48,687 bases of DNA, taken from assembly GCA_001784475.1 (NCBI GenBank), contig MFRE01000012.1:768-49454 (forward strand), given 5' to 3'. The DNA comes from Candidatus Magasanikbacteria bacterium RIFOXYD2_FULL_41_14 (GTDB lineage: Bacteria > Patescibacteriota > Patescibacteriia > Magasanikbacterales > GWA2-37-8). Positions 13,104-45,247 of this stretch are shown piece after piece. The position numbers and the translations under genes are program-made. The notes beneath the pieces were generated by a model. It was not told the DNA's origin, did not search any database, and worked only from the letters and a program-made list of their open reading frames with translations. Positions within the stretch are counted from its first letter, which is position 1; the number at the start of each line of letters is the position of its first letter.

Positions 13104-13901
13104 TTAAGATTGATCACGCGCGCTTACCAATTCTTTTAACTTATCTTCCACCCCGCTTAAACCACCTTCATTATATGATTTTAAAAAGGCACTGCCAACA
13201 ATGGCAATATCAGCTCGGCCTTTTAGCGCTTGTATCTGTTCACCACTAGAAATCCCAAAACCGACCGCGAGCGGTTGTTTAAATATATTTTTTAATTTAC
13301 CCAAATAATCATCTAAATTTGGATCTAAATCGGGACGAACGCCAGTAATACCGCGCCGTGAAAAACAATAAATAAAACCACCAGCGTCTTTGGCTTGGGC
13401 TACCAAACGATTGGCTTCGCTATCCAAACCGGCGAAACGCTGTAAAATTAAATTATGTTTGCGGCACAGTTCATCAAAATGTTCACGGCTTTCCATGTCT
13501 AAATTATAATCCGGAATAATGAGTCCGCTAATCCCGATTGCCGCACTGTCAGCACAAAATTTTTCCAAACCATAAGAAAAAGGAATATTAAAATAGGTCA
13601 TGAAAAAAAGTGGCGTTTGAATTTTATCAGTTTGTTTTAATTTTTTTACCAACTCAAACGCGTCTTTAACTTTTACGCCTTGCGCGAGCGCGACTGTGTT
13701 GGCATCACGAATAACCGGCCCGTCTCCCACCGGATCGGAAAAAGGAATTTGGAGTTCAATAAAATCCACGCCAAAGCGCGCCATCATCAAGACAATTTTT
13801 TGCGTCTCTTCCAAATTTGGATAACCAACCACGACATGGCTCATTATTCCCAATCTTTTTTCTTGTTTAATTTTTTGACATTGTAATTCTATTTGATTCA
13901 T
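13104..13901 (-). CDS. trpA: tryptophan synthase alpha subunit
   Basis: FIELQIPFSDPVGDGPVI, GLIIPDYN, GFGISSGEQ motifs. Confidence 0.95.
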   Translation of the reverse strand: MNQIELQCQKIKQEKRLGIMSHVVVGYPNLEETQKIVLMMARFGVDFIELQIPFSDPVGDGPVIRDANTVALAQGVKVKDAFELVKKLKQTDKIQTPLFFMTYFNIPFSYGLEKFCADSAAIGISGLIIPDYNLDMESREHFDELCRKHNLILQRFAGLDSEANRLVAQAKDAGGFIYCFSRRGITGVRPDLDPNLDDYLGKLKNIFKQPLAVGFGISSGEQIQALKGRADIAIVGSAFLKSYNEGGLSGVEDKLKELVSARDQS

Positions 13902-13931: not shown

Positions 13932-14045
13932 GACATAATTAATTTTCTGACTGTGGGTCTTACTCAGCCCCGGCGCCACGCTCCCAGAGGGAACTCGCCG
14001 GTGCGTCTACGCAAGCGGTCCTCGCTAGCGAAAATTAATTATGTC
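13932..14045. repeat. Structured element copy A between trpB and trpA
   Basis: 16-bp perfect inverted repeat 13932-13947 / 14030-14045 (GACATAATTAATTTTC / GAAAATTAATTATGTC) enclosing a core homologous to copy B (42991-43113). Confidence 0.85.
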
Positions 14046-14048
14046 AGG

Positions 14049-15299
14049 CTATCCGGACTTGGTTTTTAAATATTCTTTCCACTTAACATCACCCACGGCT
14101 TCGGCCACGATAAAAATATCCTTATCGCCGCGTCCGGACAAATTAACCACAATGGTTTTATCTTTTGGCAAAGTTGGCGCTAGACGAATTGCTTCCGCCA
14201 CAGCATGAGAAGATTCCAAAGCCGCGAATATTCCTTCGGTGCGTGCCAAAGTTTTAAACGCTGCTAACACTTTATCGTCGGTGGCGTAAGTATAATGCAC
14301 GCGTCCGGTTTCAAACAAACGCGCGTGCTCCGGACCAATACCGGCGTAATCTAGACCGGCTGAAATACTGTGCGTCGGTTGCACTTGACCGTCATCATCA
14401 GTTAAAAAATATGATTTATACCCTTCTACCACACCTAACTTCCCTTGACCCTGCAAACGCGCGGCGTGATCGCCAATTTTTTCTACTCCCCGCCCACCCG
14501 CTTCCACGGCAATCATTTTAACATCTGGCTCGTTCAAAAAATCATTGAATAAACCAATGGCGTTGCTACCGCCACCAACACACGCTACTAAATAATCGGG
14601 TAATTTATTTTCCATTTCATGGTGTTGCGCGCGCACCTCTCGGCCAACAATATTTTGAAAATCGCGCACCATCGACGGATATGGATGTGGACCCAAAGCC
14701 GAACCCAAAAGATAATAAGTATCATTGGGGTTGGCAATCAAATCTTGCAACGCGGCGGTAACCGCGTCTTTCAAACGTTTCGTGCCGTGCTCAACTGCAA
14801 CCACTTTTGCCCCTAACTGTTCCATCCAAAAGACATTCGGGCGTTGACGCTCAACATCTACCGCGCCCATATATACCACGCATTCCAGGCCAAATCTGGC
14901 CGCTACCGTGGCCGTGGCGAGCCCATGTTGGCCGGCGCCGGTTTCGGCAATTAAACGTTTTTTACCCATCCGTTTGGCCAGGAGCGCTTGACCCAAACAG
15001 TGATTGATTTTATGCGCGCCCGTATGATTTAGCCCTTCGTTTTTAAAATAAATTTTAGCGCCACCGAGTTGTCGCGTGAGGTTCTCAGCAAAATATAACG
15101 GCGTCGGACGACCGGAATAATTTTTATACAAATTTTCCAATTCCGCGATAAAACTCGGATCGTTTTTTGCCTCTTCGTACGCTTTAGTTAATTCTTCTAA
15201 AACGGGCACTAATAATTCTGGCACAAAACTGCCTCCAAATTGACCAAAATAGCCGAGTTGGTCAGCGTCGTATTGATTGGGTGAGAAAAAATTTTTCAT
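14049..15299 (-). CDS. trpB: tryptophan synthase beta subunit
   Basis: [65 protein letters not shown] motifs. Confidence 0.97.
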
Positions 15300-42990: not shown

Positions 42991-43113
42991 GGCCGTCATA
43001 TATGAATTTTGTTGCTGCGGAACTTAATCAGTGTTGCCGCCACGCCACCCGAGGTGGCTCGGCAACACGGCTCCCCAAGCAGTCCTCACTACCAAAATTA
43101 ATATATGACGGCC
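42991..43113. repeat. Structured element copy B
   Basis: Inverted repeat arms GGCCGTCATATATgAATTTTG (42991-43011) / CAAAATTaATATATGACGGCC (43093-43113), 20 of 21 pairs, enclosing a core homologous to copy A. Confidence 0.85.
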
Positions 43114-43207
43114 AAAAAACTCAATATGATTAATGTCCTAACATTATCATTATCATACAACAAATATTAAAAAAAAACAACCGCGCCGGCAGTTGATCAC
43201 TTTGTCT

Positions 43208-43275
43208 GTCATCCCCGTGTAAACGGGGATCCGATGGCCGATATTTTATTGTCTGGATTCCCGTTTACACTGGAA
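43208..43275. repeat. Imperfect palindromic element (GTCATYCC family)
   Basis: GTCATCCCCGTGTAAACGGGGATCC facing GGATTCCCGTTTACACTGGAATGAC; same outer motif as 1473-1572. Confidence 0.75.
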
Positions 43276-43463
43276 TGACAATTAACGATCGGAAGGGAGG
43301 AGAGGTGCCAGAACTTTCACAAACTCACTCCCCTGCCTCTTGCCAAAATTAATTGGCGATTTTGCGCCGCTGTGACCTATTAGGTCCCACGCGGCGACTG
43401 GCGCTCATTTTATACGCATTGCGCGTACACCCCGAGCGCCCGAGGGGCTTGGCCAACTGGTGG

Positions 43464-44848: not shown

Positions 44849-45247
44849 GGGGGCGTTGGGCATCGACGGTAAAGCCGACGATTGTTCGCAAGCCGAGGCG
44901 GCCTCAGTCCTCGTAAATAGATGGGGCAAATTAATAAGTGCCAACTTGTTATCAAAAGCAAAAGCAATGTTAGCCTCCGCCTTCGGTGGTGGCTGTTGCC
45001 TCGCTCCGACTTTGGCCTAAGGGCCACAAGTCCATCGTCCGCGTAAGCTTCCGTAGCGCGATCGCGGTGTAACCCACGGAAGGTAGTTTGCATGTGTTGC
45101 CGATCGCCTGCAAATGAAATTCAATCGGCTAGGCCCGTACGGCTTTTGCGTCTTTTATACGGCCGGGTCAAAAAAAATAAAAACGCTAAGCTTGTAGACG
45201 GCAGTAGTCACTCTTATCGGACGCGAGTTCAACTCTCGCCGCCTCCA
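44849..45247 (+). ncRNA. ssrA: tmRNA
   Basis: 5' GGGGGCG pairs with 3' CGCCTCC; T-arm GCGAG-TTCAACT-CTCGC; tag frame AATAAGT-GCC-AAC...TAA at 44940-45020; immediately downstream of smpB. Confidence 0.95.

Follow-up and report, generated by a model that had tools for sequence, protein, structure and literature searches.

In the window, the 48,687-nucleotide stretch of Candidatus Magasanikbacteria DNA analysed here, trpB (14049-15299; TIGR00263, 605 bits) and trpA (13104-13901; TIGR00262, 195 bits) lie on the minus strand and are separated by a hairpin element, hereafter denoted copy A (Table 1). The perfect 16-bp inverted repeat by which the first-pass annotation had delimited this element, between the two genes, is present exactly as described. 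Inside the arms lies a two-part head, its motif reading TGTGGG...TCCTCGCT on the plus strand, with a middle hairpin between its halves. Folded as a single strand, copy A has a z-score of -3.41 on either strand, and 1 of 200 shuffled sequences folds as well. A Rho-independent terminator, which would consist of a GC-rich hairpin followed by a run of T, was considered and rejected, since along the stem the head is preceded by a T-tract and followed by an A-tract, and no run of T comes after copy A; some outer arms in genome G138 are terminator-like in appearance. An empty counterpart of the copy A site was sought in the sister species, in whose genome trpB was undetectable.

Table 1. Features of the two hairpin elements in the window.
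Feature	Position	Strand	Sequence or remark
Copy A, whole hairpin element between trpB and trpA	13932..14045	- (probable folding strand)	
Copy A, left outer arm	13932..13947	+	GACATAATTAATTTTC; perfect complement of 14030-14045
Copy A, head, 5' half	13951..13957	+	C-[TGT]-GGG of the conserved internal loop; from alignment, structure and sequence
Copy A, middle hairpin	13970..14001	+	CCGGCG-CCACGC-TCCC-AGA-GGGA-ACT-CGCCGG; conservation limited to own genome
Copy A, head, 3' half	14019..14024	+	TCC-[TC]-G; from alignment, structure and sequence
Copy A, right outer arm	14030..14045	+	GAAAATTAATTATGTC
Copy B, same family as copy A	42991..43113	- (probable folding strand); head motif reads on +	arms GGCCGTCATATATGAATTTTG / CAAAATTAATATATGACGGCC

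Copy A matches other copies in its own genome with 80% identity over 76 nt (E about 1e-11), and copy B matches the same copies with 79% identity over 126 nt, which bears out the proposed homology of the two elements. The compensatory stem changes reported between them are likewise present in the sequences. The core had been described as aligning without gaps; the full alignment of A with B needs a one-base gap in the arm of A. Their outer arms do differ, as had been stated, but are not wholly unrelated, AATTTT/AAAATT standing beside the head in both. The GCCACGC loop is indeed shared by A and B but, together with the middle hairpin, is local to this genome rather than typical of the family. 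The element had been left without a known class, and in our comparison with Rfam 15 no model matches A or B; at a permissive E-value, nothing relevant was returned at copy A. The LOOT RNA (RF03000), a structured RNA of the same genome whose model matches neither copy, lies at 48175-48293 of the window (+; 65.5 bits, above the gathering score), with a tmRNA (44849-45250) and a tRNA (47789-47862) nearby. Adjoining copy B, at 43205-43280, is an imperfect palindrome, TCTGTCATCCCCGTGTAAACGGGGATCC...GGATTCCCGTTTACACTGGAATGACAAT, possibly of a separate repeat family.

At least five further copies in the same genome, complete or partial, form a subfamily of ~190 bp (the L subfamily), comprising three complete, near-identical copies and at least two that are partial or masked. 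Its members end in TGTAA...TTACA, with long, imperfect terminal repeats. By eye, 7-bp direct repeats flank three of the four testable L copies (AATTATC/AATTATC, CTTTAGG/CTTTAGG and TATTATT/TATTATC), and the fourth, C11, has no clear matching flanking repeat. The apparent target duplications at these three sites suggest that members of the family have been mobile, in this L form at least; by eye, none was seen at A, B or the copies of genus g180.

An initial model, built from five copies of the window's own genome, gave weak matches in other genera; these sequences have a common core, GCTGCGGA...TCCTCGCT, and arms that are unrelated yet complementary. A scan of 85,488 species genomes with the core pattern yielded 14 matches, five of them in named Patescibacteria (Magasanikbacteria, Uhrbacteria and Ess09-17) and one in a metagenome-assembled genome titled only 'bacterium' (FK3.bin42). 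The flanks are complementary at 16-21 of 25 bases in these six matches and at 7-10 of 25 in the eight from other bacteria, a comparison that serves as an internal control because the flanks stood outside the scan pattern. With a second, covariance model, the family was found in 42 of 390 genomes of the class (38 of 296 genera), with up to ~26 copies in 1.2 Mb (genome G227, about 26 copies); one candidate (L025, in G024) was left out because it is without the head and may be a chance hairpin. The covariance-model search of genome and relatives that the first-pass annotation had proposed thus uncovered a family with extreme covariation. Neither Rfam 15 nor the literature searched contains a description of this hairpin family, which is previously uncatalogued, and no relevant account of MITEs or palindromic repeats in Patescibacteria emerged from a literature search.

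Several candidate partners and carriers were considered. Exact-pattern scans of IMG/VR for viral carriage gave no match, and no large copy bearing an open reading frame inside the hairpin was found in the 2.4 Mb scanned. Neighbouring genes of ~500 amino acids, which had looked like a common partner, proved to be mostly unrelated and an artefact of the edges of the fetched loci. A Y1/HUH transposase was also rejected as the driver: Y1_Tnp is present in 28 of 42 carrier genomes vs 182 of 348 non-carriers, which is no clear enrichment, and a resident enzyme of this type is not required, because the copy-rich G227 has none.

The family-wide conserved part consists of the head motif, TGCGGA...TCCTCGCT, and a stem that is constant in length and unconstrained in sequence. 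The head forms an asymmetric internal loop, C-[UGC]-GGA over UCC-[UC]-G, with T and A tracts on its flanks; in many copies and genomes it continues as ACTCGC...GCTCAAACAG, and the segment between its halves ranges from about 20 to >100 nt. The stem, of about 20-30 bp, is nearly perfect and its sequence is specific to each copy; in g180 the distance between the head and the end of the arm is 25.5-28 nt (10-90% range). By eye, the flank listings contain no fixed motif at the hairpin foot across genomes, and conserved terminal inverted repeats occur only in the L subfamily and, in part, in G275.

The proposal of a selected, covarying single-strand structure is upheld by the wider data. Across 92 matches, in an alignment fitted to the structure, 94.6% of cells pair vs 67% after shuffling, and the covariation score is 0.649 vs 0.145 +/- 0.008 for shuffled data and 0.09-0.12 with the partners slid. 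In a MAFFT alignment of 14 sequences the score is 0.444 vs 0.154 +/- 0.025, a value that, like the first, leans towards the result because the structure was read from the same sequences. Among 18 G227 copies of one head type, cores are 90% identical and outer arms 27% (chance about 25%), each outer arm nonetheless matching its own partner; similarly, three copies in G138 have near-identical cores of 54-55 nt and outer arms that are unrelated between copies but perfectly self-matching. The arms are therefore not simply inherited with the head.

Mismatches within the stems are informative as to which strand folds. Counted over 14 bp within the arm, 41 mismatches are A.C and 9 are G.T (bootstrap 71-92% A.C); with gapped arms included, the counts are 48 and 8. 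As an A.C mismatch on the given strand is a G.U pair on its complement, pairing is probably selected on the complementary strand. The mismatch statistics thus mark the complement of the given strand (minus for A and B) as the one probably under pairing constraint; for copy A it coincides with the trp sense strand. In g180 it is the antisense strand of the upstream gene that the bias indicates. Some mutational cause could lie behind the A.C excess. The given strand in g180 is rich in G, and from a simple C-to-T bias there the opposite excess would be expected. In the GC-skewed half of G227, one strand carries 22 of 23 copies vs about 66% of long open frames (P 0.0009), and in G364 11 of 11 vs 64% (P 0.007); the two tests share many orthologous sites and so do not count as independent. 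In both genomes (G227 C3 and G364 C1; L157-L276), about half of the chromosome is strongly GC-skewed (about -0.13 or +0.11) and the rest almost not at all, and hairpin copies concentrate in the skewed half.

G227 and G364 carry many hairpins at the same gene borders. At orthologous site 1070808 two double (both-side) pair changes and no single change were found, and at site 1052238 two double changes vs 0.2 expected. At the atpD end and the L108 site, the hairpin is present in all three species of the genus with matched arms that are largely or wholly different. In each species the atpD right arm mirrors the last codons of the gene; that of G264 reads GTG GCT GGG TGA vs GTG TCT GGA TAA in the present gene, and appears to keep an older state of the gene end. 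Nothing resembling an arm is present at the empty gatC site of G364 or at the empty L109 site of G227/G364, so the target is not invariably the source of an arm; the empty counterpart in G094 of G138 site b holds one arm only, ATCCGTATTT, which suggests that it sometimes is. In several species a hairpin has been retained in the gap that follows atpD, dnaK or gatC. Many copies have been inherited vertically and are old, a history compatible with a host function and equally with a selfish element. Two copies stand in tandem in the gatC-gatA gap of G227 (L103, 1512-1688), and tandem and decayed copies occur at other gene borders in G364; near 614121, 710029 and 174164 of G364 C1, a GTCATCCCGGCC-like palindrome repeat occupies or interrupts the places of G227 hairpin copies.

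We favour, with about an even chance of being right, the reading that copy A belongs to a family of non-coding, non-autonomous, mobile Patescibacteria hairpins that are recognised by their structure and in whose stem selection on folding maintains the pairing. The active form would be one folded strand, probably the complement of that given, as RNA or single-stranded DNA, in which a putative host or transposon-encoded protein may recognise the head and about two turns of duplex of any sequence. Pairing would be kept by selection for the fold, probably helped by template switching during replication, the head folding back and one arm being recopied from the other. Stems are known to arise and to be repaired by template switching, which is documented for RNA stems (PMC8794818). 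Presumably the head itself primes such switching. Copies may spread sometimes embedded in an ordinary inverted-repeat transposon such as the L subfamily with its apparent 7-bp target duplications. Against this reading we count that a search for an enzyme partner among Y1/HUH transposases yielded none, that C11 is without a flanking repeat, that many old copies are inherited vertically, that two empty sites bear no trace of arms while the G094 site suggests copying from the target, and that the A.C bias is possibly mutational. A bolder version, which we consider unlikely, has the mobile head fold back on the growing DNA strand and prime the recopying of ~two helical turns of flank into an inverted arm; were this so, a perfect stem of local sequence would be imposed wherever the head lands, and the orientation of the element would follow the direction of replication.

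The main rival, which we regard as possible if rather unlikely, is an RNA that benefits the host: lying closely behind a stop codon, in a 3'-UTR or between cistrons, the hairpin would stabilise mRNA or direct its processing, acting as an RNase III site or exonuclease barrier, with a head that binds protein and a stem that needs only length and pairing. The strong pairing constraint fits this, as do the persistence of hairpins after atpD, dnaK or gatC and the placement of most g180 elements 9-38 nt after the stop codon of the upstream gene in a single orientation. In genomes outside g180, however, orientation relative to genes is mixed and some copies lie between divergent genes; the sporadic distribution over genera and the antisense strand indicated in g180 also count against it. 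Inverted duplication of the target would make the arms a product of mechanism rather than of selection: on insertion of the head, about 12-25 nt of flank would be written again in inverted form as the right arm. The unrelated but matching outer arms on the G138 heads, the single arm at the G094 site and the atpD arms that mirror each gene end, apparently in an older version in G264, are what it would leave behind, but the gatC and L109 empty sites are without any such sequence, the arms go on changing in concert long after insertion, and the G094 site could be a deletion remnant; we find this explanation doubtful. Ordinary MITEs, with palindromic transposon ends by chance and a middle kept only through recent common origin, would account for the terminal repeats and apparent target duplications of the L subfamily, but the divergent termini and conserved middle within a genome are the reverse of what MITEs show, and the head motif and fold are common to many families of the class. 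Largely contradicted by the copy-specific arms, this last explanation is very improbable. That the element is not a simple MITE, as first proposed, is thus borne out, but the family is dispersed and partly mobile.

The hairpin family constitutes a sizeable, strand-biased repeat class in Patescibacteria, with members inside the trp, atp and gat operons and adjoining dnaK. Compensatory stems are usually read as the outcome of slow, mutation-by-mutation selection; the same head on unrelated, matched stems in dozens of copies, many at shared gene borders, offers a natural series for both-side stem replacement. Among known systems, the REP/BIME sequences of Gammaproteobacteria, which are associated with RAYT (a Y1 transposase), are likewise short, dispersed, intergenic and non-autonomous hairpins, often located after stop codons. 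REPs have a conserved foot (GTAG) and a conserved stem, whereas our family has a conserved tip on a free stem, and Y1_Tnp is not clearly enriched in carriers. Fungal and algal organelles, as in Allomyces and Volvox, contain selfish-looking, intergenic palindromic and double-hairpin elements that are able to fold, and resemble our family as short palindromes spread through intergenic DNA (PMC2670323); in the portions of that source drawn on here, the Volvox palindromes are reported to be repeats with consensus sequences, and no asymmetric conserved head on copy-specific perfect arms is mentioned. MITEs share the non-autonomous state, the terminal inverted repeats and, in the L subfamily, the apparent target duplications, but the terminal arms of our family are not common to the copies of one genome. 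Integron attC sites are recognised as a folded single strand, with variable stem sequence and extrahelical bases, and have boxes conserved at the base and a tip that varies. No cassette array was seen, inspection by eye brought up neither an R box consensus nor an integron integrase, and the pattern of conservation is the reverse of that in attC, the tip being the conserved part.
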